This document shows positions 750 to 14,592 of a DNA stretch of 64,000 bases, one piece after another. Position numbers and translations under genes: made by a program. The notes beneath the pieces are model-generated. The model was not told where the DNA came from. It saw only the letters and a list, made by a program, of their open reading frames with translations, and did no database searches. The stretch's first letter is position 1. Each line of letters opens with the position of its first letter. This stretch comes from Thiorhodococcus drewsii AZ1 (GTDB lineage Bacteria; Pseudomonadota; Gammaproteobacteria; Chromatiales; Chromatiaceae). The stretch lies in assembly GCF_000224065.1 (NCBI RefSeq), contig NZ_AFWT01000020.1, positions 1 to 64,000 of the forward strand, in the 5' to 3' direction.

Positions 750-1352
750 TCACTGAATGCCAAAATGATCGCAATAGGCGTCCAGGTAACACCTGATGGC
801 CTCGAATGTCGACACCGCACTCGCCGCAGCAACCTCCTGCTCATCGCCCGAACACTGCGCGTCGGCAAACTCCAGGAACTCGTCCCAGCGCTGGCGCGAC
901 AGCGGTCCGTAGCCCCTGAAAAATGCGGTCGGCACATTTGCTAGCGGGCCTTCCCGGAGGACGCGTGCGATGACTTGACCACCCTGCGACGCACCTTCGA
1001 TGGTATAGAGTATCCCCACGAGTTCGGCCACGGATTGCGGCACGGGGACATGCGCGGCGAGCAGCACGGGCGTACGCCCGAGCACCGCCAAGTCCGCTTC
1101 CAGCGCCGGCAATTTGCGCCGTGCGCGGTAGTCGAACAGCCCTGGATGTTGGTCGAGAAACGTCAGAATGGCGGCTTCGGTATCGGTATGGATACCATGC
1201 AGTGCGTCGAGGGCGTTGGAATACTGATCCACCGACAGGTCCGGTCTGACCAGAGGAGCAAGCACCGGATGGTGATCGAGGACATGGTGGGACGATTTCG
1301 TTGCCTGTCGTAAACGGCGATGCAATGCAGAAGGTGGTGCTTCGTTCTTCAT
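750..1352 (-). CDS. bphO: Biliverdin-producing heme oxygenase (BphO/HemO type)
   Basis: This 200-residue protein matches the normal length of bacterial heme oxygenases, which cleave heme to biliverdin, CO and iron in the cytoplasm. The N-terminus reads LHRRLRQATKSSHHVLDHHP, with histidines where the heme-ligating residue sits in this family. The distal helix carries TIEGASQGGQVIARVL, corresponding to the conserved Gly-rich segment over the heme. ATG 1352 (MKNEAPPSAL) is chosen because family similarity begins at once, while upstream codons look non-coding. It is divergent from the bacteriophytochrome gene at 1561, the usual bphO-bphP pairing, so its main job is probably supplying the biliverdin chromophore rather than harvesting iron. 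Confidence 0.88.
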   Translation of the reverse strand: MKNEAPPSALHRRLRQATKSSHHVLDHHPVLAPLVRPDLSVDQYSNALDALHGIHTDTEAAILTFLDQHPGLFDYRARRKLPALEADLAVLGRTPVLLAAHVPVPQSVAELVGILYTIEGASQGGQVIARVLREGPLANVPTAFFRGYGPLSRQRWDEFLEFADAQCSGDEQEVAAASAVSTFEAIRCYLDAYCDHFGIQ

Positions 1353-1560
1353 CGGCAACCCGTTATTGTGGTGACCGGCAGCGGCGCCGCTCCCGGTCAT
1401 CGTTCGCGCGAACCATCGCCAGACAGCGATGAATCCACACATCAGGCTAACGCCAGGCGCGGGTCCCAGCAAGGGGCTGAAGTCATGAGTCGGCTGACCG
1501 CCGCCAGCCTCCTCGCCGTTCGCTGGCGAGCCTCTTTACAAGCCATTGAAGGTGTGCGCT

Positions 1561-4500
1561 ATGGATCCCGAACCGGTAACGCCCCTTGACCTGTTAAGCT
1601 GTGAAAATGAGCCGATCCGCTTTACCGGTGCCGTGCAGCCGCACGGTGCGCTCCTGGTGCTCCAGCGCGAATGCGGACGCATCGAGGCCGCCAGTCAATC
1701 GTGCGAGGAACTGCTCGGGCTGTCGGCCGAGCGCCTGCTTGGGCGCCCGATCGGCCAGGTGTTCGGCGCAGAGGCTGAAACAGCCCTACTGGCTGAGCCC
1801 GTCGATGACTCGCCCCCGCTCCTGACCCTATCGCTGAACGGCCAGTCGTTCGCCGCCCGCGCCTGGCTCAATCAGGATGGGCAGGTGCTGGTCGACATCG
1901 AGCCCTGCGGACCGAAACCATCGGTCTTTCAGGGGTTGATCGAGCGCTATCGACGCGGGATCGATGGCTTGCGCCGGCTCGACGGCGTACCAGAGATCAC
2001 GCAAGCCGCATCAGAGTTGGTGCGTACCCTCACCGGGCTCGATCAGGTGATGATCTATCGCTTCGACCCCGCCTGGAACGGCGAGGTGATCGCCGAAGCG
2101 CGGGCGCCCTGGGTCGAGTCCTATCTGGGGCTCAATTTCCCCGCTAGCGACATTCCCAAGCAGGCGCGAGAGTTGTTCCAACTCTGCAAGGTGCGCCAGA
2201 TTCCCGATGCACTCTATACCCCGTCGGCGCTTCTGACGAACATGGATGCGCAAGGCATCGATCTGGGTCGTTCGACCCTGCGCAGCGTTTCGCCGATCCA
2301 TCTCGAATACTTGAAAAACATGGGCGCGCGCGCCACGCTGGTGGGCGCACTGGTCGTCGAGGACCGCCTGTGGGGTCTGCTGTCCTGCCACCAAAAACAC
2401 GAACCCAAGTGTTTCGCTCCAGCCGAGCGCGACCTCCTCGGCTGGCTCTGCGACGACCTCTCAGCGTTGATCGAGGCGCGACTGATCCGCGAGCGCCGCG
2501 CACATGAGCGCGATCTCGCCGCCCGCCGCCAGACGCTGATCGCGTCGATCCGCACGCTCGGTTTCAAAGCACTCATGCATACGGAGCACAATCCCGCTCT
2601 GCTCGGTGTCGTCAGCGCCGATGGCTTTGCTCTGATGGTCGAAGAGGCGATTCAGACCTGCGGCCATACCCCCAGTATCGACCGTATCCGTGAACTCTAT
2701 CGACGTCGTCTCGCGCGTGAGCCTGACTCCACACTGTTTGCCACCAGCGCCCTGAACCACGATCTTGGTCTAGAGGCGGTTGACGACGGTGTCGCCGGGG
2801 CCTTGTTCATGTCTGTGTTGCGCAAACCACGGGTCACGATGATCTGGTTTCGCCGCGAGCGACACTGCTCAGTGAGCTGGGGTGGCAACCCGGATCGTCC
2901 ACATCTCACCGACGATGCTGGACGCATCTCCCCGCGCCAGTCATTCGAGCGCTTTCTGCAAGAGATCCGTGGCCAGTCGCTACCCTGGTCGGCGGAGGAG
3001 TTGGAGTCGGCCGTCGAACTGCCCTCCTTGGTCGAGATCGAGGCGTTGCGCGAACGCGAAGCCTTCTCGCAGACCATTCTCGACTCGATGTCCGAGCACA
3101 TCTCCGTGCTCGACGCGCACGGTGTCATCGTCACGGTCAACAGCTCCTGGAAACACGTTACCGAAGCCAACGCGACGTCAAACGTGGCCGAGACCCCGGT
3201 TGGAGTCCGCTACCGGGACGCCTGCTCGGCAGCAGGATTGCCCAGCGGAGACGAAGCCATCACGGCTTGGGCGGGAATCGAAGCGGTCCTGAAGGGTCAG
3301 CGCGACACCTTCACGCTCGACTACCGTTGTGACTCATCGAGCGAGCGACGATGGTTTCGGATGCACGTCTATCCGATGCTGCCACCAAGCGAAGGGGTGG
3401 TGGTGGTCCACGAAAATGTCACGCCACGCAAACTTGCCGAACAGGCACTGATCGCCAGCGAGGAACGCTATCGCGCCTTGCTCGAAGACCAGACCGAGCT
3501 GATCTACCGGTTCAAGACGGACGGCACCATCCTTTACGTCAACGACGCCTTTTGCCGGTTCTTTGGCAAACCGGCCGACACCCTGATCGGAAACCATTGG
3601 CAACCCACCGTCTGGGCCGAGGATCTGCCACTGATCAACGAGAAGCTGAAAACCCTATCGCCAACGAACCCCCTGGTCACGATCGAAAACCGTGTCCTCG
3701 ACGCCAGCGGTGCAGTGCGTTGGGGACAGTTCGTCAATCGAGCCTTCTTCGATGACCAAGGCAACCTGACCGAAACTCAGGTCGTCGCGCGCGACATCAC
3801 CGAGCGCAAGCAGGCCGAAAACAGACTCGCCAAGGTCTTGGAGGAACAACGTTCCATTTTGCAAAGTGAAGTGGTCGGCTTTGCCATGATTGCGAACCGC
3901 ACGATCATCTGGGCGAACCGCGCCATAGCCAAGATGTTCGGATACAGCGAAGACGAACTCGTCAACCGCCCCACGCGCTGCTTCTATCAAGACGATGAAT
4001 CCTACGAGGAGCTGGGCCGTCAGGGCTATGCGATCGTCACGGCCGGGCACGTCTTTCGCAGCCAGGTTCGCTGGCGGCGTAAAGATGGCTCTCTCGGTTG
4101 GTTCAACCTATCGGCCGCTCAATTGCGAGCCAATGACGAGACGTCGATCTGGGCCCTCGTTGATATATCGACGCAGAAACAAGCAGAATCGGAGCTGATT
4201 GAAGCAAAGCTCGCCGCCGAAGCGGCCAACATCGCCAAGAGCCGCTTCCTGGCCACCATGAGCCACGAGATCCGCACCCCCATGAACGGTATCCTCGGCA
4301 TGGCGCAGTTGCTGATGATTCCTGCGTTGACCGAAACCAAGCGACAGGAGTACGCGCGCACCGTCCTCCAATCCGGACAAACGCTGCTGGCCCTACTCAA
4401 CGACATACTGGACCTATCCAAGATCGAGGCCGGCCGCGTCGAGTTGGAATCTCTGGCCATGGACCCCGCTCAGATCCTGGACGAAACGCAGACGCTGTTT

Positions 4501-5424
4501 GCAGAACCGGCGCGCTGCAAAGGCTTACGCCTGACGTCAACGTGGCGAGGTCGCGTCGGACAACACTATCTGAGCGACCCCTATCGGTTGCGCCAGATGC
4601 TGTCGAATCTCGTGGGCAACGCCATCAAGTTCACCCATCAGGGCGAGATCCAGATCAGCGCGCACGAAGTCGAGCGCGCCGACGACTCGGCCGTGATCGA
4701 ATTCAGCGTCTCAGACACGGGGATCGGCATTGCCGACGATCACCGTTCATCGCTGTTTCAGCCGTTCTCGCAAGTCGACAGCTCGACGACCCGCCACTAT
4801 GGGGGAACGGGGCTCGGACTTTCGATCGTGCGCAGACTGGCCACCTTGATGGGCGGCGAGGTCGGCGTCGAAAGCGAGGTCGACTGCGGTTCGCGATTCT
4901 GGTTCCGTATTCGAGCCGGTCTGCTGGCATCCGGCATGGAGCGTCGAGCTGTGGAACCCCTCAAGGTCGACGATCGGCCCACCACGAGGCTGCCGCAATT
5001 GACGGGGCGGATCCTGGTGATCGAAGACACACCGATCAGCCGCCAGGTCTTAGAGGACATCTTGAACCGACTCGGTTTGACCGTGGTGTCAGTCGAGGAT
5101 GGGCAACAGGGTGTCAAGGCGATCATGGACGGCGATACGGCCGATCTGGTGCTGATGGACCTGCGCACACCGGTCATGAACGGGTATGAGGCGACCAAGC
5201 GCATCCGCCAGTGGGAGGCTCATGAGCGCCGGGCACGCCGTCCGATCATTGCCTTGACCGCAGATGCAGGCGAGGACAGTCGTCAGCATTGCCTTGCCGC
5301 CGGTATGGATGGGTTTCTGACGAAACCCATCAGCATCAAGACGCTCGCGGCGACGCTGAGCCAGTATTTTCGCCCTGCCGCAGAGGATCATCCAGTGACT
5401 GCGGCAAATGCAGAAAGACCCTGA
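1561..5424 (+). CDS. bphP: Bacteriophytochrome hybrid histidine kinase
   Basis: This is a red/far-red photoreceptor kinase of 1287 residues. The order is a PAS-2 domain with the biliverdin-binding Cys14 (SCENEPIRFTGAVQPHG), GAF with the PASDIP chromophore motif (194-199) and histidines in SPIHLEYLKNMG and SCHQKH, and PHY with the tongue motif PRQSF (458-462). Three PAS/PAC repeats follow (about 510-890), then HisKA with phospho-acceptor His902 (MSHEIRTPMNG), an ATPase with GTGLGLSIV, and a C-terminal receiver whose acceptor should be Asp1200 (LMDLRTPVMNG). ATG 1561 is preferred over TTG 1546 because GAAGG lies 7 bases upstream. The three PAS domains between photosensory core and kinase are extra; standard bacteriophytochromes have none. 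Output partners are not encoded nearby. Confidence 0.93.
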   Translation: MDPEPVTPLDLLSCENEPIRFTGAVQPHGALLVLQRECGRIEAASQSCEELLGLSAERLLGRPIGQVFGAEAETALLAEPVDDSPPLLTLSLNGQSFAARAWLNQDGQVLVDIEPCGPKPSVFQGLIERYRRGIDGLRRLDGVPEITQAASELVRTLTGLDQVMIYRFDPAWNGEVIAEARAPWVESYLGLNFPASDIPKQARELFQLCKVRQIPDALYTPSALLTNMDAQGIDLGRSTLRSVSPIHLEYLKNMGARATLVGALVVEDRLWGLLSCHQKHEPKCFAPAERDLLGWLCDDLSALIEARLIRERRAHERDLAARRQTLIASIRTLGFKALMHTEHNPALLGVVSADGFALMVEEAIQTCGHTPSIDRIRELYRRRLAREPDSTLFATSALNHDLGLEAVDDGVAGALFMSVLRKPRVTMIWFRRERHCSVSWGGNPDRPHLTDDAGRISPRQSFERFLQEIRGQSLPWSAEELESAVELPSLVEIEALREREAFSQTILDSMSEHISVLDAHGVIVTVNSSWKHVTEANATSNVAETPVGVRYRDACSAAGLPSGDEAITAWAGIEAVLKGQRDTFTLDYRCDSSSERRWFRMHVYPMLPPSEGVVVVHENVTPRKLAEQALIASEERYRALLEDQTELIYRFKTDGTILYVNDAFCRFFGKPADTLIGNHWQPTVWAEDLPLINEKLKTLSPTNPLVTIENRVLDASGAVRWGQFVNRAFFDDQGNLTETQVVARDITERKQAENRLAKVLEEQRSILQSEVVGFAMIANRTIIWANRAIAKMFGYSEDELVNRPTRCFYQDDESYEELGRQGYAIVTAGHVFRSQVRWRRKDGSLGWFNLSAAQLRANDETSIWALVDISTQKQAESELIEAKLAAEAANIAKSRFLATMSHEIRTPMNGILGMAQLLMIPALTETKRQEYARTVLQSGQTLLALLNDILDLSKIEAGRVELESLAMDPAQILDETQTLFAEPARCKGLRLTSTWRGRVGQHYLSDPYRLRQMLSNLVGNAIKFTHQGEIQISAHEVERADDSAVIEFSVSDTGIGIADDHRSSLFQPFSQVDSSTTRHYGGTGLGLSIVRRLATLMGGEVGVESEVDCGSRFWFRIRAGLLASGMERRAVEPLKVDDRPTTRLPQLTGRILVIEDTPISRQVLEDILNRLGLTVVSVEDGQQGVKAIMDGDTADLVLMDLRTPVMNGYEATKRIRQWEAHERRARRPIIALTADAGEDSRQHCLAAGMDGFLTKPISIKTLAATLSQYFRPAAEDHPVTAANAERP

Positions 5425-5457
5425 TTACATCGGACCATCCTCTTGATTTCGTGATCG

Positions 5458-5483
5458 GCTCGAGGCGGAATTCGCCGTCGAGC
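5458..5483. repeat. Imperfect palindrome after bphP
   Basis: Arms GCTCGA and TCGAGC flank a GAATTC core with near-complementary GGCG/CGCC bases. It lies in the 177-base convergent gap between bphP and the ATPase gene and could act as a bidirectional terminator, but no T-tract follows. A smaller ATCCCG/CGGGAT hairpin lies at 5493-5510. Confidence 0.3.
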
Positions 5484-5601
5484 AGATGCAAAATCCCGCT
5501 GTGCCGGGATGATGAACAGACGTTCCATGATCAACTCCACCGGGACCTTGGTGGAGCGGGAAGGATCTCGTGGAGGTGGGTCGCAACGGCTCGCAGGTGA
5601 T

Positions 5602-7716
5602 TCAGGATTTCGCGATGAGCCTTGCGCGATCATCCCCCACGACACGCGCGCCACGGAGCGCATTCACGAGCACCGCCAGTGTCGTACCGTTGTGCAGAAG
5701 CGCGCTGGCGGCGGGTGAGAGCCGCCCCATCAAGGCGCCAGCCATTATGGCGGTATTGATACCGACGGTGGCGTTGAAGTTGGTACGGATGACGCTCAGG
5801 GTTCCTAGGGCGATTTCGCGGGCATCGGCAAGCGCGAGCAATCGGTCGTCGGTCAGCACGATATCGGCGCTGGCACGGGCGAGGTCCGCACCGCCCGACA
5901 TGGCAATGCCAATGTCTGCCGCAACGAGCGCGGGGCCGTCGTTGATGCCATCGCCAACGAAGCCGACCCGCCGGCCGTCACGCTGCAGCGCCTTGATGAG
6001 TTCGGCCTTTTCCTCGGGCCGAACCTCGGCGTGGATGTCATCGAGCCGAAGCTCTCGCCCGAGGGAGTCCGCCTTCTCGCGGCGATCGCCGGAGATCATG
6101 ACCAGCCGGTCAATGCCAAGCGTGCGCAGCTTGGAGAGGGCCGCCGCCGCATCGGTGCGCAGGGTGTCGCGCAGGGCGATCAGCCCTATGGGGCCACGCT
6201 CGTTCGCGATATAGAGCAAGATTTTGCCGTCGTTGATGAGCGAGGCAAGACGCGACTCATAGGCGTTGAAGTGAATACCCTCGTGCTCTTCGATGTAGTG
6301 CCGACTGCCGACGATGATCCGCCCGCCTTGGATCTCGGCCGAGAGGCCGTGCGCGACCAGATAGTCGACCTCGCCATGGGAGATATGCTGCAAGTCGCGC
6401 TCGCGCGCGGCCTCAACCACGGCCTGAGACAGCGGGTGACTGGCATGCTCCTCGACCGAGGCGACGAGCGCGAGCAGGGCCTCCTCGGAGTAGTCGCAAC
6501 TGCGGTTCAGGACCACCACGTCGGTGACCTCAAGCGCGCTATAGGTCAGGGTTCCCGTCTTGTCGAAGACCAGGGTATCGATCTCGGCCAGACGCTCCAT
6601 CGCCTCACCGCCCTTGATGAGGATGCCGCGTCTAGCCGCCTCGTAGAGACCAGACTTGAACGCCACTGGCGTGCCGAGCTTGAGCGCGCAGGAATAATCG
6701 ACCAAGAACACCGACTGAACGCGCGTCAGATCGCGCGTCACCGCGTAGACCGCGCCAGCGGCCCCAAGCGTGAGATAGACGCGATTGTCCGCCAGGACAT
6801 CCGCGAGGCGCTGCGTCTCCGAAGCTTGGTCGAGCGAGCTGCGGATGAAGCGCGAAATACGTGCGGCGGTGGTGTCCTCCCCCACTCGGATGGCTTTGAT
6901 GCGCAGACGCCCCTCGACCAGCACCGAGCCGGCAACGACACGTTTGGGCGCCTCGCACGCAACGGGCACGTCCTCGCCGGTCACGGCGGCCTGATTGACC
7001 AGGGCGACCCCAGCGACGACCTGGCCGTCGACCGAGATGGTTTCACCGACACCAACGACGATGATCTCGCCCGTTCGGACCTGATCGCTGGCGACCTGGA
7101 TGAGTTCACCGCCGCGCTCGACCCAGGCGGCCGTAGGCTGGGGACGCAGTAAGCGCCGGAGCATGCGATCGGACTGCTGTTGGGTACGAACTTCAAAATA
7201 CTCGCCGAGCGTGAGCAGGAAATCCGTAACGTTCGCCGTATAAAGCTTACCCCGGCCCGCCGAGAGGCCGACGGCCAAGGCATCCAGGACCTCGACTTTG
7301 ACCCCTTGATTGATGAGGGTATCGGCCCCCTTGAGAAGCTTGGTACCAATGTTCAAGAAGGTGGCGACCCGCTGAGCCGAGCTCGGCAGCAGAGGCAACA
7401 GCAGCAGGGTCAGCACGCTCCTCACAAGCGGTGTAATAGATGGATCATCCGACTCGGGGTGGAGATTTTGTTCCGTTGCGCTCTGAGGGCGGAAGGCGAC
7501 CAGCCGATCCAGGATCCGCTCGCGCGGAACCTGCTGCGGATCGAACTGAATCACGAGGGTGCACGCACGCACATTGATACGAGCCTCCTCCACGCCGTCC
7601 AACATCTCCAGCCAGGAACGCAGGGTCTCGGTTAGACCGCCGCAAACGGTCGGCTGCACACGCACCCGCATCCGCCCGGGCAACTCGTGGAGGATACGAT
7701 AGGGCATTGACGACAT
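5602..7716 (-). CDS. fezB: P1B-type heavy-metal ATPase, ferrosome FezB-like (P1B-6 type)
   Basis: This 704-residue P-type ATPase would pump a metal ion, probably iron, across a membrane. The N-terminal HMA-like fold lacks CxxC and instead has HELPGRMRVRV (residues 10-20). The actuator TGE is near 246, phosphorylation motif DKTGTLT starts at Asp385, the HP dipeptide of P1B pumps is near 427, and GDGINDGPA is near 588. The membrane metal-site motif is YSCALKLGTP (about 341-350) instead of CPC, so it is not a Cu, Zn or Cd pump. An SC-type site with an Arg-rich N-terminus is what I recall for the P1B-6 pumps of ferrosome clusters. ATG 7716 is preferred to TTG 7755. It is the last gene of a minus-strand run starting at 10745. 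Metal specificity is inferred. Confidence 0.8.
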   Translation of the reverse strand: MSSMPYRILHELPGRMRVRVQPTVCGGLTETLRSWLEMLDGVEEARINVRACTLVIQFDPQQVPRERILDRLVAFRPQSATEQNLHPESDDPSITPLVRSVLTLLLLPLLPSSAQRVATFLNIGTKLLKGADTLINQGVKVEVLDALAVGLSAGRGKLYTANVTDFLLTLGEYFEVRTQQQSDRMLRRLLRPQPTAAWVERGGELIQVASDQVRTGEIIVVGVGETISVDGQVVAGVALVNQAAVTGEDVPVACEAPKRVVAGSVLVEGRLRIKAIRVGEDTTAARISRFIRSSLDQASETQRLADVLADNRVYLTLGAAGAVYAVTRDLTRVQSVFLVDYSCALKLGTPVAFKSGLYEAARRGILIKGGEAMERLAEIDTLVFDKTGTLTYSALEVTDVVVLNRSCDYSEEALLALVASVEEHASHPLSQAVVEAARERDLQHISHGEVDYLVAHGLSAEIQGGRIIVGSRHYIEEHEGIHFNAYESRLASLINDGKILLYIANERGPIGLIALRDTLRTDAAAALSKLRTLGIDRLVMISGDRREKADSLGRELRLDDIHAEVRPEEKAELIKALQRDGRRVGFVGDGINDGPALVAADIGIAMSGGADLARASADIVLTDDRLLALADAREIALGTLSVIRTNFNATVGINTAIMAGALMGRLSPAASALLHNGTTLAVLVNALRGARVVGDDRARLIAKS

Positions 7717-7858
7717 ACTCGATTCCACGGTCAGCGGCCAAGGCTGCCGAATCAAAGGCTGCGAAAAGATGGTTCAACGCACACGACGTGGCAGCGCCAC
7801 GTCGAAGTCCGCAGAACCATCAACTCAAACTGGAAATGGGGTGCTGGTCGCTCGCGGC

Positions 7859-8236
7859 TCAGCCGCCTTTTTTCTCGCTCGCGTGATGCAGCTCGGCGGC
7901 CGCGTCACCGAACTTTTCCTTCACTTCCTCGACCCCGCCCTGCAAAAGCGACCACACCTTGACGGCCCCCTTGATAGCCGTGCGCTGCACCTGCTCGTTG
8001 GTCAACAGATAGGTCGCTGCGGCACCAATCAGCATTCCTTTCAGGAACCGATCGTTGGGCAGACCGAGCGCGGAGCGGTTGGGCTGCTGATTGAACTGCT
8101 GACTGAACTGCTGGTTGGACGGATAGGCGGTGTGGTAGGGCATTCCGGGCTGAGCCTGACCGGAATAACCGCCGCCGACCGAACCACCGGGATATTGGCT
8201 TGCCCTTTGGCCCTGCTGATAATCGTTCTGGCTCAT
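7859..8236 (-). CDS. Small glycine-zipper membrane protein of the ferrosome-like cluster
   Basis: The protein has 125 residues. The N-terminal half (1-62) is a disordered Gln/Gly/Tyr/Pro-rich tail with NQQFSQQFNQQ. It is followed by a short hydrophobic segment with small-residue spacing, RFLKGMLIGAAATYLLTN (about 63-80), and then an amphipathic C-terminal region rich in Lys, Glu and Ala, reminiscent of YtxH-type proteins. It has no enzymatic motif. Its start overlaps the upstream gene by ATGA, so translation is coupled, and 142 bases separate it from the ATPase gene. The same layout (low-complexity tail plus glycine-rich helix) is shared by the gene at 8785, pointing to a common role such as lining a membrane compartment. 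That role is inferred. Confidence 0.75.
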   Translation of the reverse strand: MSQNDYQQGQRASQYPGGSVGGGYSGQAQPGMPYHTAYPSNQQFSQQFNQQPNRSALGLPNDRFLKGMLIGAAATYLLTNEQVQRTAIKGAVKVWSLLQGGVEEVKEKFGDAAAELHHASEKKGG

Positions 8237-8418
8237 GCTGAGTCTCTCGTCGTTGCTTGAGTTGAGGGTTTGGTTTGAGGGGTCGTCGAAGCGCGTCGAC
8301 CGAAAAGCCCGCGTAGAAAGAGTACCAGTGCGGCTCCAGCCAGGAAGCCACCAGCACCCTCGACCAGGTTCTTCGTCACACCGTGGCGGTGAGCCTGCCC
8401 CTGTGCAGTGTTACTCAT
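8233..8418 (-). CDS. Very small single-helix membrane protein of the ferrosome-like cluster
   Basis: This 61-residue protein starts at ATG 8418 (MSNTAQGQAHRHGV), which has a strong GAGGTGGA ribosome-binding site just upstream; longer starts lack one. The single hydrophobic helix is GAGGFLAGAALVLFLRGLFG with Gly/Ala spacing, followed by an RR pair and a Thr/Pro/Gln tail. It overlaps the gene upstream by 8 bases and the gene downstream by 4 (ATGA), so it is embedded in a tightly coupled operon. The helix end LFLRGLFGR resembles SGSLQGLFGRAG in the 8785 protein, suggesting common ancestry. No function can be assigned from sequence alone. Confidence 0.7.
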   Translation of the reverse strand: MSNTAQGQAHRHGVTKNLVEGAGGFLAGAALVLFLRGLFGRRASTTPQTKPSTQATTRDSA

Positions 8419-8788
8419 AATCCACCTCGCCGCCGCCAAATCGGTCCTGGATGCCATAAACCACGACCGAGCCAATCAGGAACATGAGCCCTAGCCGCAT
8501 CGCACCCTGCTCGGCCACACTGGAGGCAATGGCCCCAGCCGCTAAGGTCGCCAACCCAGCCGTAACGGCCGCCTTCCCGGTCTCCGCCAGCGCGGCATTC
8601 GGCATCTGTTCGCCCGCTCGAAATCGGCGGAACTGCTGCGCAGCAGCCGCACTGCCACCCACGACGGCGCCCATGGTCGCTAGGCGCATCATCGCCGAAC
8701 AATCCGGTCCGGCGACCTGTTGCGGTTGAGCCGGATAGCTGGGATGGTATGGAATCAATTGGCTTTGCGCTTCATAGGCACCGCTCAT
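8411..8788 (-). CDS. Ala/Gly-rich membrane protein of the ferrosome-like cluster
   Basis: A 125-residue protein with a short Tyr/Pro/Gln-rich head (LIPYHPSYPAQPQQV) followed by two or three hydrophobic, small-residue helices: MGAVVGGSAAAA (about 39-50), VTAGLATLAAGAIASSVAE (about 75-93) and LGLMFLIGSVVVYGI (about 99-113). It ends in an acidic GGGEVDYE tail. The repeated small-xxx-small spacing is typical of glycine-zipper packing. The start ATG 8788 overlaps the upstream stop as ATGA, so it is translationally coupled. I do not recognise a named family. Its position between other zipper proteins and the ATPase suggests a structural role in the same membrane compartment. Confidence 0.72.
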   Translation of the reverse strand: MSGAYEAQSQLIPYHPSYPAQPQQVAGPDCSAMMRLATMGAVVGGSAAAAQQFRRFRAGEQMPNAALAETGKAAVTAGLATLAAGAIASSVAEQGAMRLGLMFLIGSVVVYGIQDRFGGGEVDYE

Positions 8789-9456
8789 TTCTCGGACTCC
8801 GCATCACCTGCCCCCTTTCCCGTCGACGCACCCGCTCGCCCGAACAGGCCCTGAAGCGAACCGCTGCTCAACACCAGCACGGCCGCCGCACCGACCAAAG
8901 CACCCTTCCAAAAATCCGGATCTTCGAAATTCAGCATCTTGGAGATCGTGGATAGACCGTTGCCGCCGTTCGCAACCTCGTTCATGAGGTCGCTCATAAC
9001 CGGTCCACGGCCTGCTTCGGCCCCTGCACCAGGTCCATAACCCGGCGGATAGGAGGGAGGCTGTGCCCAATAAGGCACCTGCCCCGGAGGCATGCCAGGC
9101 ACAAAGTGCGGCGGATAGGCGTGTTGGGCATAGGAGGGACCAGCCCAAGGTCCAAACTCTGGAGGCATGGGGGGCGTGTATCCATAACCGTAAGCAGCCC
9201 CCCCTTGAGCGAAAGACGGATGGGGCGATTGGTACCCGTTGACTCCGCCAGGTTGACCACTCCAAGCGCCATCATGACCCTGAGCAGCGGACGGGCCATG
9301 CCCCATACCTTCAGCTGAGGCAGAGACGCTCTCGCCATAACCGCTAGCATCACCCTGTTGTCCTGGTGCCGCGCCCCTGGCATCACGCGAATCGCCCGGT
9401 CCCTGAGAGGTAGGCCCGAGACCTGTATCTGGGGCGCTTCCTGGATGCTCACTCAT
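8785..9456 (-). CDS. Pro/Gly/Tyr-rich protein with C-terminal glycine-zipper helix
   Basis: The protein has 223 residues. Residues 1-145 are strongly biased to Gly, Pro, Ser, Ala, Gln and Tyr (segments such as AAYGYGYTPPMPPEFGPW), predicting disorder and possible self-association. The C-terminal part has a polar linker, then FWKGALVGAAAVLVLSSGSL, a hydrophobic helix with Gly/Ala spacing, and a charged tail. ATG 9456 is chosen for the GGAG 9-13 bases upstream; the longer frame reads into IS-derived DNA. It is the first gene after the IS256 remnant. Soft low-complexity domains joined to zipper helices are known from magnetosome-associated proteins; here that is only an architectural analogy. 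Confidence 0.72.
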   Translation of the reverse strand: MSEHPGSAPDTGLGPTSQGPGDSRDARGAAPGQQGDASGYGESVSASAEGMGHGPSAAQGHDGAWSGQPGGVNGYQSPHPSFAQGGAAYGYGYTPPMPPEFGPWAGPSYAQHAYPPHFVPGMPPGQVPYWAQPPSYPPGYGPGAGAEAGRGPVMSDLMNEVANGGNGLSTISKMLNFEDPDFWKGALVGAAAVLVLSSGSLQGLFGRAGASTGKGAGDAESEK

Positions 9457-9536
9457 TCGAAAATATCTCCAATACAGTTCAAATTGCTGGGATGGTTTTG
9501 CACGCAGAGGACTTCCAGGAAGCCCTCTTGCGGGTG

Positions 9537-9591
9537 CAACTGAAATGCTCCTCCTGGGCGACAAGCCTTGCTGGCTTGGCCATTTCAGTTG
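9537..9591. repeat. Nested inverted repeat
   Basis: CAACTGAAATG (9537-9547) pairs perfectly with CATTTCAGTTG (9581-9591). Inside the loop CAAGCC (9562-9567) pairs with GGCTTG (9573-9578). The structure lies between the IS256 remnant and the 9456 start codon, so it may be a relic of the mobile element's end or affect expression of the downstream genes. Confidence 0.6.
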
Positions 9592-9646
9592 TCTGACGAT
9601 TTAATGTCAAACCTGGGGTATGACCTCCATCAAGCGGCGATCCGAT

Positions 9647-10022
9647 CCGATCTGACTGATCGTTCACTTGCGCTCCATCGCGGAACGGAACCTTGTTGAC
9701 GACCAGTTCCAGTTTTCCAAATCCCTTGATGCGTCTCCAGTTCTCCTGCGCCGACTGGAGCAGCTTGAAAACCATCGCCAGCGTGGTCTCGCGCGCCCCG
9801 CAATTGCGGGTGCGGTTGGTGCGCAGGCGCACGGTGGTGTTGGCCGACCGCCCATCGGCCCGATCGCCGAGCTGCGTACCACCGCTCGGCGCCCATCCTC
9901 AAGACGCTGATCGGCATACCCAGCCAGAAAGCTCAGGCCAACTCTGCCTCGACGGCCTGAGCGATGAGTTCGCGCACCCAATTCCTGAGCGACGCATGCA
10001 GCGGGTTGTGCTCCTCGGTCAT
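9647..10022 (-). pseudogene. IS256-family transposase remnant, internally deleted
   Basis: From ATG 10022 the N-terminus reads MTEEHNPLHASLRNWVRELI and continues to EAELA, as in IS256-type (mutator-like) transposases, then stops. A second frame continues FLAGYADQRLEDGRRAVVR. A third frame joins directly to the family's C-terminal part, RTNRTRNCGARETTLAMVF through NWRRIKGFGKLELVVNKV. The whole central DDE catalytic region is missing and there are at least two frame changes, so the element is dead. It interrupts the minus-strand gene run between the HMA-like gene (10745) and the 9456 gene. No gene is visible at 10114-10376. Confidence 0.75.
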
Positions 10023-10376
10023 GGCGTATCCACCTCTGTCGTCTGTGATCTTGGTCGTGACCAGTCGACAGGATACGCCATCCCTCCTCGGGCGCCTGTA
10101 CACCAGAAATCACAAGAATTCTTGACTGGCCGGTATCGCTTCGCAGGCACGGCTATTAGGCCGCAAGACCTTAAACTGCGACTGCGGGCGCGACACGGAT
10201 CGGGATGATTGGCAACCATGCGGACGGTCCAAAGGGCGAACCCTTCGGTCATTGCAAGTGCTTGCCGCCACGACGCTCCGGCTTCGGCTTCTGTTGCGAG
10301 ACCGAGCGACGATGGGATGTCGGAATCCAGACTCCGAGCGCACCCAAACGTCTAGCGCGGGTCCGGCGGCTCGTCG

Positions 10377-10745
10377 CTACAGGAAGGCGCCGACCAGTTT
10401 GAACGCCGAGCGCTCGACGGCTTTATTGATGACGGCCCCAACGAGCGCTTTCCCAAACATGGCGCCGGCCTTGCCCGCAACCGCCGACCGATTTGTCACA
10501 TCGCGCTCCAGATCTGGAGTAGGACAGCCGAGCCCCTTCATCGCAGCCAGCAACTCCAGATGCGTGAGCTGCTCCGGGCTGTAGTGGACTGTAATGCTGC
10601 CGGCATGGGTGTTCAGCCGAACCTGGCGAACGCCTTCAAGACCAAGCAAAAACATCTGCGCTGCGCGCGCCTCCGCAGGTTGACAGCGAAAAGCAGCGGA
10701 GCGAACACGCAAACGTCCCGGAACGTGATGAATCGAGTGGCTCAT
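10377..10745 (-). CDS. HMA-like protein with hydrophobic glycine-zipper tail (FezC-like)
   Basis: The first ~75 of 122 residues form an HMA-type ferredoxin-like fold (VRQVRLNTHAGSITVHYSP), without the metal-binding CxxC. In its place is HHVPGRLRVR (residues 6-15), the same H-x-x-P/S-G-R-x-R-x-R signature as the ATPase N-terminus and the divergent gene at 10960. The C-terminus is a small-residue hydrophobic helix (AGAMFGKALVGAVINKAVE). HMA domain plus hydrophobic tail is a combination I associate with ferrosome clusters. The ATG at 10745 faces Fur-box candidates at 10774-10835, so this is probably the first gene of an iron-repressed operon. Read-through to the genes beyond the IS256 remnant is uncertain. 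Confidence 0.75.
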   Translation of the reverse strand: MSHSIHHVPGRLRVRSAAFRCQPAEARAAQMFLLGLEGVRQVRLNTHAGSITVHYSPEQLTHLELLAAMKGLGCPTPDLERDVTNRSAVAGKAGAMFGKALVGAVINKAVERSAFKLVGAFL

Positions 10746-10773
10746 GGCATTTTCTCGTGGTCGTGAAGCGAAA

Positions 10774-10797
10774 AATAATGCAACTGTTTCTCATTAT
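10774..10797. promoter_or_regulatory. Fur-box candidate 1
   Basis: The bottom strand reads ATAATGAGAAACAGTTGCAT, close to Fur operators of the ATAATGAGAATNATTNGCAT form. It sits 29 bases upstream of the 10745 start codon, inside the divergent 214-base gap, which is AT-rich compared with its surroundings. The assignment is by eye against the consensus. Confidence 0.65.
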
Positions 10798-10811
10798 ATT
10801 TTTCGCCGAAC

Positions 10812-10835
10812 GATAAATGCAACCAATTCTTATTA
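10812..10835. promoter_or_regulatory. Fur-box candidate 2
   Basis: The bottom strand reads TAATAAGAATTGGTTGCATT, a second Fur-like operator in the same orientation as candidate 1. Two boxes between divergent HMA-like genes suggest iron-dependent repression of both. A weaker related motif (GAACGATTAGCATTAGC) lies at about 10872-10888. Confidence 0.6.
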
Positions 10836-10959
10836 CTTTGTCGAGACGGGAGATAAGCGAGAGCTTTTAGAGAACGATTAGCATTAGCAACAAAACCGAA
10901 AGTCACGTATCTTTACACCTCCAGGTACACCCTAACGAGTTGATTGAAGAGGCGAGGCG

Positions 10960-11532
10960 ATGCTGTACTTACTAGGACAGTCCAGAGATACGCACTTGTT
11001 TACTGTCTGTCACCAGGTTTCCGGAAGAACCCGTCTGCGCGTGCCTGCCGTGATGCAGGATCCCAGTCTGGCGGCGCGGGCCGCCGCAGCTCTGCGTGAG
11101 TTGGAGGGGGTCTGTGAAGTGCGCGCTAACGCCGCCTGCGCGAGCCTCGTCTTGCGGCATCACCACGCATTTGCACCCTCGGCCACACGACTCGCACAAG
11201 CATTGCGGCCGGTACTCAACCAGTCGCTGCCTGAGGTCTGGAGCGACTCGGAACGATCAAAGCAACCGCCACCCATGAAGTCTGTGCAGCGCTCGAAGCA
11301 ACCGCCACCCGTGAAGTCTGTGCAACGCTCGAAGCAACTGCTACCCGTGAAGTCTGTGCAGCGCTCGACCAGTGCCAGCTCGCAGCGCAAGACGCCGCCC
11401 TGTGCAATTTGCCAGCTGAAGCTTAAGGCCGTGCGCTGGCTCTTGGCAGATGTTTGGCAGTGCTGGCGCAAGTCTTGGACGCAACGCCTGCGCGAACGGA
11501 CGGCCATGATCGTCGCAATGCGTAGCTCTTGA
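10960..11532 (+). CDS. HMA-like protein with repeat linker and C-terminal CxxC
   Basis: This 190-residue protein is read from ATG 10960 with GAGGCGAGG just upstream. Residues 12-90 resemble an HMA-type fold with the signature CHQVSGRTRLRV (17-28) in place of GMxCxxC. Residues ~99-134 are three 12-residue repeats of the type RSKQPPPVKSVQ, strongly basic and Pro-rich. A CAICQLKLK motif with CxxC and a basic, Trp/Arg-rich C-terminus follow. It is divergent from the 10745 operon and shares its Fur-box region, so it probably belongs to the same iron system. The C-terminal CxxC could replace the metal site lost from the HMA fold. Function is not known. Confidence 0.7.
   Translation: MLYLLGQSRDTHLFTVCHQVSGRTRLRVPAVMQDPSLAARAAAALRELEGVCEVRANAACASLVLRHHHAFAPSATRLAQALRPVLNQSLPEVWSDSERSKQPPPMKSVQRSKQPPPVKSVQRSKQLLPVKSVQRSTSASSQRKTPPCAICQLKLKAVRWLLADVWQCWRKSWTQRLRERTAMIVAMRSS
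11254..11361 (+). repeat. Three 36-bp in-frame tandem repeats
   Basis: Units at 11254-11289, 11290-11325 and 11326-11361 differ by only a few bases, and a partial fourth start follows. Each encodes 12 residues of a Ser/Lys/Gln/Pro-rich linker. The unit length is a multiple of three, so copy-number change would lengthen the linker without breaking the gene. Confidence 0.9.
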
Positions 11533-12119
11533 GTTCGAGTCCTGCCCGGCCCCCTGCCCGGCCCGATCGAACTGCTGGTCTATATCCGCCGCCAGAACCG
11601 GATGGCCTTGCCCGCCTTTTCCACAGAACGGCGGAACGGCCGAAACACCTGGCTCAGCGCTGACGAGACGCACGGACTCGGGCTGCGCACGATCCTCGCC
11701 CCCCTATCGGTAGCCTGATTCAACGACACCCTTCGGTGCTCGATTGACCTCGCAAGTATTACGGATTAACTTTACGTGTGATGTGGTCATTGCGAGACAC
11801 TCGTGGCTTTACAGCCAAGATGCTTTTCGGTATAAATAACAACAATTATCGTTAACATCCACAGCGAGACTTGATACTTGGTTTCGAGACATCACTCGAT
11901 CATGTCGGCCCTATCCCACATCCATAGGCTGACAAGTCGAGTCTCGACTGCAGGCATAAGACCCATCGCCAGTTATAACCGCTAGGCACCCGTCGCGGAC
12001 GGCTGTTGCCCGATCTATTCGCGTCTTTTATACAACAAGATCCCAAACCCATCTCGTGGCAGCACCAAGCATCACGAGACCACCTGACACCAATCCTACG
12101 CATGCAGGAGTACGAAACC
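11533..12119. other. 587-base gap with no confirmed gene
   Basis: The first part (11533-11718) is an open stretch of 61 codons in frame with the preceding gene after its TGA (for example PIELLVYIRRQNRMALPAF), which may be a decayed extension or chance. The rest is AT-richer and probably carries the promoter of the 12120 gene. Confidence 0.5.
11832..11850. promoter_or_regulatory. Weak Fur-box-like site upstream of the siderophore porin
   Basis: ATAAATAACAACAATTATC matches 12 of 19 bases of the classical Fur consensus, with the right half-site intact. It lies 270 bases before the 12120 start codon, so a long leader would be required. Plausible because LbtU-type porins serve iron uptake. Confidence 0.3.
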
Positions 12120-13382
12120 ATGAGAATGCTGATGCTGCCAACGGCCATCGCGCTCGCGCTCGCCACCCAAAGCCCGGCTCATGCCGAAAGCGTCGAAACC
12201 CGGCTGGAACGGCTGGAGACCCAAAACAGCGCCTTGGAGGCACAGCTCAAGCGTCAGGAGGCACGGATCGCCGAACAGCAAGCCCAGTTGCAGGGCGCCC
12301 CTGGACGCGTAAAGGCGATCGAGGAGGACATGGAAGACAAGCGTCTCGCAGCCGCTCAGAGCGGCGCAAGCGCCTGGTTCCGTAACATCGAGATCGCAGG
12401 TCTGATCGAGGTCGAAGGCGCCTATATGTCGCCCTACGAGGGCGACAACGAGAGCGATTTCACCCTCGCGACCGTCGAGCTCGGCATCAGCTCCCAGGTC
12501 AACGACTGGGTCGAGGCGGGCATCTCCTTTCTCTACGAAGAGGACGACACCGACCTTGAGGTCGACACCGGCTACATCACCATCGCCAATGCCGACGTAA
12601 CGCCCCTCTTCCTGACCGCCGGTCAGATCTACGTCCCCTTTGGCGCCTACGAGACCAACCTGGTTTCGGATCCGCTCACGCTGGAGATCGGCGAAACGCG
12701 CGAGAGCGCACTCCAGATCGGCTTCGCCCACGGCGATTTCTCGGGAAGTGCCTATGCCTTCAACGGCGACAACAAGGTCAAGGGCAAGAACCAGATCGAC
12801 AGCTGGGGCGCAAACCTCGCCTACGCACATGAGGAGGCGGATCGAGCCTGGGCATTCGGCGTCGGCTACATCAACGATCTGGGCGATTCGGACACACTGC
12901 AGGACAGCATCAACGACAACCGCGTCGCAGCACTGGATGAAGCCATCGGGACCGGCATCGATACCAGCCACTACAGCGTCGATCCGACCGAGCGCACCGG
13001 CGGCTGGACCATCAATGCCGGGGCGAATTTCGGCCCCTTCAACCTCATCGGCGAATACCTCTCCGCTACCGAGGAGTACGACCCCATCAGTCTGAGCTTC
13101 AAGGACGGGGGCGCCAAACCCTCGGCCTGGAATGTTGAGGCCGGTTACAGCTTCTCGATCATGGGCCGCGAATCGACCGCTGCCATCGCCTATCAGGGCA
13201 CGGACGAGGCCCTAGCGCTCGAACTGCCCAAGGAACGCTGGCTGATCGGCTGGTCGGTCGAGGTCTTCGACAACACCGCACTCTCACTCGAATGGGCGCA
13301 TGACAAGGATTACTCCGGCAAGGACGGTGGAACTGGCGAGTCCGCCAACAGCGTCGTCGCACAGCTCGCAGTCGAATTCTGA
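12120..13382 (+). CDS. LbtU-family siderophore porin (outer membrane)
   Basis: The protein has 420 residues. A signal peptide ([22 protein letters not shown]) is followed by a coiled-coil segment at about 22-65 ([20 protein letters not shown]) and then a beta-rich barrel with aromatic/acidic strands, ending in VVAQLAVEF with the terminal Phe typical of outer-membrane proteins. This layout matches LbtU-type porins that take up siderophores without TonB. Start ATG 12120 has AGGAG at 12106-12110; the longer upstream frame is not a signal peptide. It lies next to the iron-linked HMA/ATPase island, which supports an iron role. The substrate cannot be read from sequence. Confidence 0.75.
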
Positions 13383-13390
13383 TGCCTGCC

Positions 13391-13415
13391 GCTGGGCGCC
13401 ACCCAGGCGCCCAGC
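13391..13415 (+). terminator. GC-rich hairpin after the siderophore porin
   Basis: GCTGGGCGC (13391-13399) and GCGCCCAGC (13407-13415) form a perfect 9-bp stem with a 7-base loop, 8 bases after the stop codon. No T-tract follows. The 3' arm runs directly into the heptamer array, so its CCAGC may have been the seed of that array. Confidence 0.45.
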
Positions 13416-13542
13416 TCCCAGCTCCCAGCTCCCAGCTCCCAGCTCCCAGCTCCCAGCTCCCAGCTCCCAGCTCCCAGCTCCCAGCTCCCAGCTCCCAGCT
13501 CCCAGCTCCCAGCTCCCAGCTCCCAGCTCCCAGCTCCCAGCT
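13411..13542 (+). repeat. Heptanucleotide tandem array CCAGCTC, about 19 copies
   Basis: A perfect 7-bp tandem repeat of 132 bases lies between the siderophore porin stop and the Zur box. Any translation through it is artefactual (a LPAPSSQ periodic peptide). Compare the arrays at 25541 and 43587. Confidence 0.95.
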
Positions 13543-13555
13543 GATTGTGATCGAG

Positions 13556-13574
13556 AATGTTATGTCATAACATT
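13556..13574. promoter_or_regulatory. Zur box upstream of znuA
   Basis: AATGTTATG-T-CATAACATT is a perfect 9-bp inverted repeat around one base and matches the enterobacterial Zur operator core (TGTTATANTATAACA) closely. It lies 77 bases before the znuA start, so zinc-dependent repression is expected. Confidence 0.85.
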
Positions 13575-13650
13575 TGCCACGTTCAGAGAGCTCAAATCAT
13601 CCATTCCAGGCGCGGCGATCCGAGTGTCGCGCTCCGCCAAGGGCAAACAG

Positions 13651-14592
<942 letters not shown>

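Follow-up and report, generated by a model that had tools for sequence, protein, structure and literature searches.

Ferrosome (fez) gene clusters are known from Desulfovibrio magneticus, Rhodopseudomonas palustris and Clostridioides difficile, and a Shewanella makes ferrosomes as well. FezB, the pump encoded in these clusters, is a P1B-6-ATPase, and P1B-6 is the pump class of ferrosomes. The FezC cytochrome is not known from every ferrosome cluster. For R. palustris six consecutive fez genes are reported (PMC12016538), and its fez gene set is described to fall together with iron genes at low light (PMC6879726). FezC is presented as a DUF4405-like cytochrome and FezB as a putative ferrous-iron transporter (PMC11334425), and C. 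difficile is reported to require FezA and FezB, with Fur acting as repressor (PMC12574912). A second system of related build is the plasma-membrane pump CtpC with PacL1, in which single-helix low-complexity PacL proteins gather a P1B6-like pump into foci (PMC9374683).

The DNA analyzed here, in the following called the window, is a 64-kb stretch of a contig of Thiorhodococcus drewsii AZ1, a member of the Chromatiaceae. An initial annotation had described four overlapping genes at 7859, 8233, 8411 and 8785, and these were confirmed as conserved open reading frames on the minus strand: A (8785-9456), M (8411-8788), S (8233-8418) and Q (7859-8236). The ATG starts are located at 9456, 8788, 8418 and 8236, and the overlaps between A and M, M and S, and S and Q amount to 4, 8 and 4 nt. 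Gene A comprises 223 codons after the initial Met, the stop included, and for S a longer form starting with TTG at 8475 is an alternative. The span of 7859 to 9456 originally assigned to the genes was too narrow, as the cluster extends to an ATPase gene (T, 704 aa, 5602-7716, minus strand, possible alternative TTG start at 7755) directly downstream of Q and to two HMA-type genes (10377-11532) upstream of A. H2 (122 aa, 10377-10745) is located on the same strand as A-M-S-Q-T and contains an HMA_2 domain (Pfam E 2e-7, 31.5 bits, above the cut-off of 30). H1 (190 aa, 10960-11532, plus strand) is divergent from the other cluster genes; it is HMA_2-like with a score slightly below the same cut-off (E 1.8e-6, 28.5 bits) and forms a profile family of its own. 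A profile-profile comparison (98.9%) indicates that H1 and H2 are related. The C-terminal half of H1 contains K-S-V-Q-R-S-K-Q repeats, which are absent from the H1 relatives inspected.

Between H2 and A lies a degenerate multi-copy repeat (9598-10134), pieces of which are 78-97% identical across 28 matches in the genome, itself included. A Pfam search with two open reading frames of this region gave no match. It is probably the remnant of an insertion element outside the system, and the position of this copy suggests that an insertion probably separated H2 from the other cluster genes. A search of positions 5000-12500 against Rfam revealed nothing at the gathering thresholds. Two further regions of the window were recorded. 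At 750-5424 a heme oxygenase (Pfam E 1.9e-8) is encoded alongside a hybrid histidine kinase of the phytochrome type, which has PAS/GAF/PHY as well as receiver domains; the two are likely a bacteriophytochrome pair neighboring the cluster. The open reading frame at 13300-14592 contains a ZnuA domain (residues 143-428) and a long His/Glu run in the middle of the protein; its N-terminal part as listed consists of S-Q-L-P-A-P-S repeats, and the true start is probably located downstream of these repeats.

The T protein scored 485.8 bits with TIGR01525 (cut-off 346.25) and is predicted to be a P1B-6-type heavy-metal ATPase. The ion-binding helix carries S-C-A, and L-H-N-G-T-T is located near the end. 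The HN motif is described as a feature of P1B6-ATPases, a class whose substrate is poorly characterized (PMC9374683); T shares the motif, and no difference from the class was found. Of 79 long open reading frames matching the T profile, 78 contain HN; the one without it is a second pump in locus L121 that is unrelated. A fixed pattern detected SCA in 65 of the 79 and the variants ACA, ACG, SCS and SCG in 12, and two did not fit. In a tree of 31 pumps, which carries a long-outgroup-branch warning and includes no reference P1B-6-ATPase of known name, 26 cluster pumps grouped together (100/100), and four other P1B pumps of the genome fell outside this clade. The pump on a Cytobacillus plasmid was rejected as a different pump without the cluster. 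The statement of the initial annotation that no enzyme motif is recognizable is correct for A, M, S and Q, but it missed their conserved partner, a P-type ATPase.

Inspection by eye revealed Gly/Ala-spaced hydrophobic helices in all four small proteins, as had been claimed, and a 19-residue hydropathy window exceeded 1.2 in A, S and three stretches of M, but never in Q. A consists of a disordered Gly/Pro/Gln/Tyr head and a DPDFWKGALVGAAA membrane helix with the motif D-x-x-F-W-K-G-A-x-x-G-A-A. In Q a disordered Gln/Gly/Tyr head precedes a NDRFLKGMLIGAAATYLLTN membrane helix with the motif K-G-x-x-x-G-A-A-x-x-Y-L-L-T-N, followed by a long amphipathic helix with E-E-x-K-E-R. S is a single-helix protein of 61 aa, and M is a membrane protein with three predicted helices. 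Disordered heads had been assigned to three proteins; the long Gly/Gln/Pro/Tyr heads of A and Q agree with this, but the head of M is short. The AF2 model of Q (pTM 0.31) showed pLDDT values below 50 for residues 14-52 and helices at 62-79 and 81-124. For M residues 1-30 reached pLDDT 53-57, and the packing of the three helices is unreliable with a mean pLDDT of 68.8 and a pTM of 0.30.

The four proteins had further been regarded as one coupled family, with duplication suggested by their helix ends. Duplication is supported for A and Q, which are paralogues as judged by profile alignment (hhalign 98.2%, E 2.8e-14, 47 columns). The kinship of S is uncertain: S and A, whose helix ends LFLRGLFGR and LQGLFGRAG the initial annotation had cited, gave an hhalign value of 85.9% over 18 columns only. 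M is separate and showed no kinship to A and Q by this test (11.3% and 41.3%). In searches of Pfam and NCBIfam none of the four proteins exceeded the cut-off of a curated family, and homology to an unrelated transporter subunit, named in the initial annotation as a finding that would speak against it, did not appear above these cut-offs either. Matches of Q and A to SARAF and YtxH were weak and below cut-off and were put down to similar composition or to a remote similarity of helices; among the plasmid relatives of Q, some carry the PGAP label YtxH. A Tectivirus minor capsid match of M reached an E value of 0.015 only and was rejected, and the best match of M in a PDB profile search had an E value of 0.25.

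A scan of a species-genome collection with the ATPase segment yielded 375 confirmed stretches; the 80 best of them were analyzed with a profile E value below 1e-4 within 6 kb as the threshold for membership. In these best 80 of the 375 loci, whose counts are not independent because selection was based on the ATPase and many near relatives (Vibrio, Photobacterium, Shewanella, Kluyvera) are included, Q and T were each detected in 79/80, M in 76/80, A in 75/80, H2 in 72/80 and H1 in 68/80, S was found in 9/80, mostly in clusters of the Chromatiaceae type, and the exact order (H2)-H1-A-M-Q-T occurred in 53/80. One locus (L132) ends inside T. The window deviates from these loci in gene orientation, with H2 on the strand of A-M-S-Q-T and H1 divergent. 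Compared with close relatives, pN was below pS in M (0.24-0.26 vs 0.60-0.63), Q (0.21-0.27 vs 0.54-0.66), A (0.36-0.38 vs 0.70-0.71) and also T, a comparison in which, due to the high dS, only the direction is meant. The gene order shared by homologues across many genera, together with pN below pS in A, M and Q, argues that the A-M-S-Q arrangement is more than chance. Three clusters of the purple-sulfur type contain two M genes each (L090, 6672-8459; L129, 7474-8504; L030, 7145-8209). At the place that A takes in the gammaproteobacterial clusters, the Azospirillum and Arcobacter loci (L167, 4529-4885; L168, 4646-4918) encode a different small single-helix protein, for which no Pfam family above cut-off was found.

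Within the window's own family 15/92 genomes, the window genome included, gave an M match. Inspection of 16 regions revealed the ATPase beside A and/or Q relatives in 12 and weak M matches without a cluster in three, and a second locus of genome G033 (L029) contains A and M but lacks the ATPase. The weak M matches in G013 and G078, which have no adjoining cluster, were regarded as chance matches or unrelated proteins. In an evenly drawn sample of the phylum Q was present in 7/398 genomes. The cluster ATPase was found at E <= 1e-170 in at least 8/398, seven of which are the Q-bearing genomes; at most two candidates per genome were scored in the matches listed, so absences in this search are soft. 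In the eighth genome (G379) the ATPase is broken and located at a contig end, and no A, M or Q was seen. The class of G379 has the ATPase in 2/190 genomes, the second being G486, with H1, M, Q, T and H2 in consecutive order.

The comparison of M with the magnetosome protein MamC was based on profiles in both directions. The M protein of the window matched the NCBIfam MamC profile (NF038051) with an E value of 3.1e-10 and 40.2 bits, and did not reach the cut-off of 100. It aligns to positions 12-87 of the 97 profile positions and shares the GAVVGGSAA...TGK core. This profile detected 62 of 67 M proteins at E <= 0.01, and conversely the M profile recovered all eight MamC proteins in MamC loci (E 6e-12 to 4e-18) and matched in Azospirillum (E 4e-6), Cereibacter (8e-7), Arcobacter (2e-13) and G486 (4e-8) as well. 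From these profiles we conclude that M is homologous to MamC. A resemblance of Gly/Ala-rich membrane helices without common ancestry is very improbable: although the low complexity of M, the distance of 40.2 bits from the cut-off of 100 and the acidic residues mostly missing from M speak for it, 62 of 67 M proteins would not be expected to match the MamC profile in this case, nor the M profile to find 8/8 MamC proteins, and the alignment also includes a loop outside the helices. In addition, the MamC profile matched 16/398 genomes, 13 above the cut-off and only three (G000, G420 and G328) below it, and all three have the cluster with Q and the ATPase.

M was nevertheless not classed as a MamC protein, since its score lies below the family cut-off, its neighbors are not those of magnetosome loci and the acidic pair is mostly absent. 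This pair of the magnetite-interacting loop is given as Glu66/Asp70 (PMC6584501) and is printed as Asp 66 and Glu 70 in PMC6206293. With columns inferred from spacing, it is present in 8/8 MamC proteins vs 6/67 M proteins, and the M protein of the window has A and E at these columns. The lack of most of the magnetite-contact acids counts against a mineral-contact role shared with MamC. The neighbors of M are T, A, Q, S, H1 and H2, whereas those of MamC differ in the eight MamC loci: profiles of A, Q, S, H1, H2 and T had no match at E <= 1 in the open reading frames around the eight MamC genes, and M alone matched. The Magnetococcales clusters L054, L055 and L057 lack M. In Magnetococcia four genomes have Q and 11/48 have MamC without overlap, which is expected by chance in about one of three cases; the MamC profile had no match in the four cluster-bearing genomes of this class (G108, G174, G190, G241), and M was not seen in their clusters either. 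In the papers found by our literature search, judged by titles and abstract openings and by parts of PMC12713370, a set that does not include the founding ferrosome papers, a MamC homologue in ferrosome clusters was not described.

Iron genes adjoin the cluster in the three cluster-bearing plasmid records from which the neighbor genes were taken. Plasmid pORIO2 of Cereibacter azotoformans encodes FeoA and TonB receptors near the cluster, and p3 of Azospirillum brasilense encodes an iron ABC transporter beside it. On the Arcobacter plasmid a DUF2202 gene lies within the cluster, and genes for TonB receptors and a ChaN lipoprotein are located next to the cluster; locus L032 contains a DUF2202-like gene between Q and T; the DUF2202/rubrerythrin-like matches in both clusters are below the Pfam cut-offs. 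A FezC-like (DUF4405) gene adjoining the Arcobacter cluster also remained below cut-off (E 6.8e-4). In the window a candidate Fur-box-like site (10870-10888) is predicted in the 214 bp that separate H2 and H1. It agrees with a Fur-box consensus in 15/19 positions and is the top-scoring 19-mer of the 64-kb window. Upstream of A no Fur-like site was detected (best 10/19, shuffle mean 10.56). Among 76 relatives the upstream Fur-like site surpassed all 50 shuffles in 19, and in 29 at least 10 of the 50 shuffles equalled it. A compartment or export system for another metal, e.g. zinc or manganese, would agree with the ZnuA-family gene at 13300-14592 and with the protection against zinc reported for the P1B6-like CtpC (PMC9374683), Fe(II) being a predicted substrate of T. 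We consider it improbable in view of the iron genes beside the three plasmid loci and the ferritin-like genes within two clusters; the Fur-like sites give a mixed picture on this point.

The explanation that we favor, with fair though not full confidence, is that the cluster is a ferrosome-type (fez) set, in which A, M, S and Q build vesicles and the pump fills them with iron. T would remove metal, most likely Fe(II), from the cytoplasm and transport it into a membrane compartment inside the cell. A, Q and S would each be held in the membrane by a single Gly-zipper helix, A and Q would expose the disordered Gly/Gln/Pro/Tyr heads, and Q in addition the long amphipathic helix. With these anchors, heads and the amphipathic helix of Q, the three proteins could assemble next to each other, give the membrane its shape or cluster it, and keep the pump in place there. 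M would share this membrane, where it may be in contact with the stored mineral or a precursor of it, and H1, H2 and the HMA_2-like N-terminus of the ATPase may deliver or sense metal. Cluster membership and conservation, the paralogy of A and Q, the homology of M and MamC, the ATPase motifs and the iron neighbors are supported directly, and from them we infer the iron cargo, the vesicle formation and the task of each protein. The vesicle lining proposed in the initial annotation fits a predicted P1B-6-type ATPase cluster of the ferrosome-linked kind with a MamC homologue, but for the condensate coat offered as an alternative we found nothing beyond the disordered heads. The relationship of M to MamC had escaped the initial annotation.

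The main rival to the ferrosome-type set is an efflux platform in the plasma membrane like CtpC-PacL1, in which A, Q and S would gather the pump and the metal would be exported without an organelle. As in the PacL1-CtpC system, small single-helix low-complexity proteins occur with a P1B6-like pump (PMC9374683): A, Q and S are of the same general build and are encoded beside T, and the DUF6110 proteins, relatives of PacL, are reported as typically encoded with P1B6 pumps (PMC9374683). We nevertheless regard such a platform as unlikely, since it leaves the conserved MamC homologue and the adjoining iron-uptake genes unexplained. No match to DUF1490 or DUF6110 was found; the search of the genomes with the DUF6110 profile had no matches in the controls likewise and is hence uninformative. 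CtpC has CPC where T has SCA (PMC9374683), and the C-terminal His/Asp metal-binding motif of PacL1, which is absent in DUF6110, was not seen by eye at the ends of A, S and Q.

With regard to the ferrosome-type set, a broader reading concerns the non-magnetotactic Gammaproteobacteria (Vibrio, Shewanella, Photobacterium, Ferrimonas, Enterobacterales, Chromatiaceae). These bacteria may carry ferrosome-type clusters with a conserved MamC homologue, ferrosomes and magnetosomes may share a membrane-protein toolkit, and MamC may derive from an older iron organelle with a general Gly-zipper membrane scaffold or may have been taken up into it; we give this reading an even chance. If it is true, a protein family of magnetosomes is also among the components of a widespread bacterial iron compartment, and ordinary laboratory bacteria would allow tests of how membranes are bent or lined for mineral storage and of whether the two iron organelles have a common origin. 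For small proteins without a curated Pfam or NCBIfam family above cut-off, motifs and a partner pump are now given.

Compared with the described fez clusters, the cluster of the window differs in the presence of a MamC homologue and in the FezC-like cytochrome, which was not found; a DUF4405 search of the seven window proteins gave no match at E <= 1. The assignment to the fez type was made from gene content and descriptions, the best 80 of the 375 loci including none from Rhodopseudomonas, Desulfovibrio or Clostridioides and hence no sequences of proven fez proteins. The number of six genes in R. palustris equals that of the Azospirillum cluster and of the order found in 53 loci, which is suggestive only. 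The combination of a P1B-6 pump with small membrane proteins, which we take as the mark of fez clusters, is present in the window. Taken together, the cluster resembles the fez clusters in its metal P-type ATPase, there FezB, encoded with small membrane proteins, and in its links to iron.
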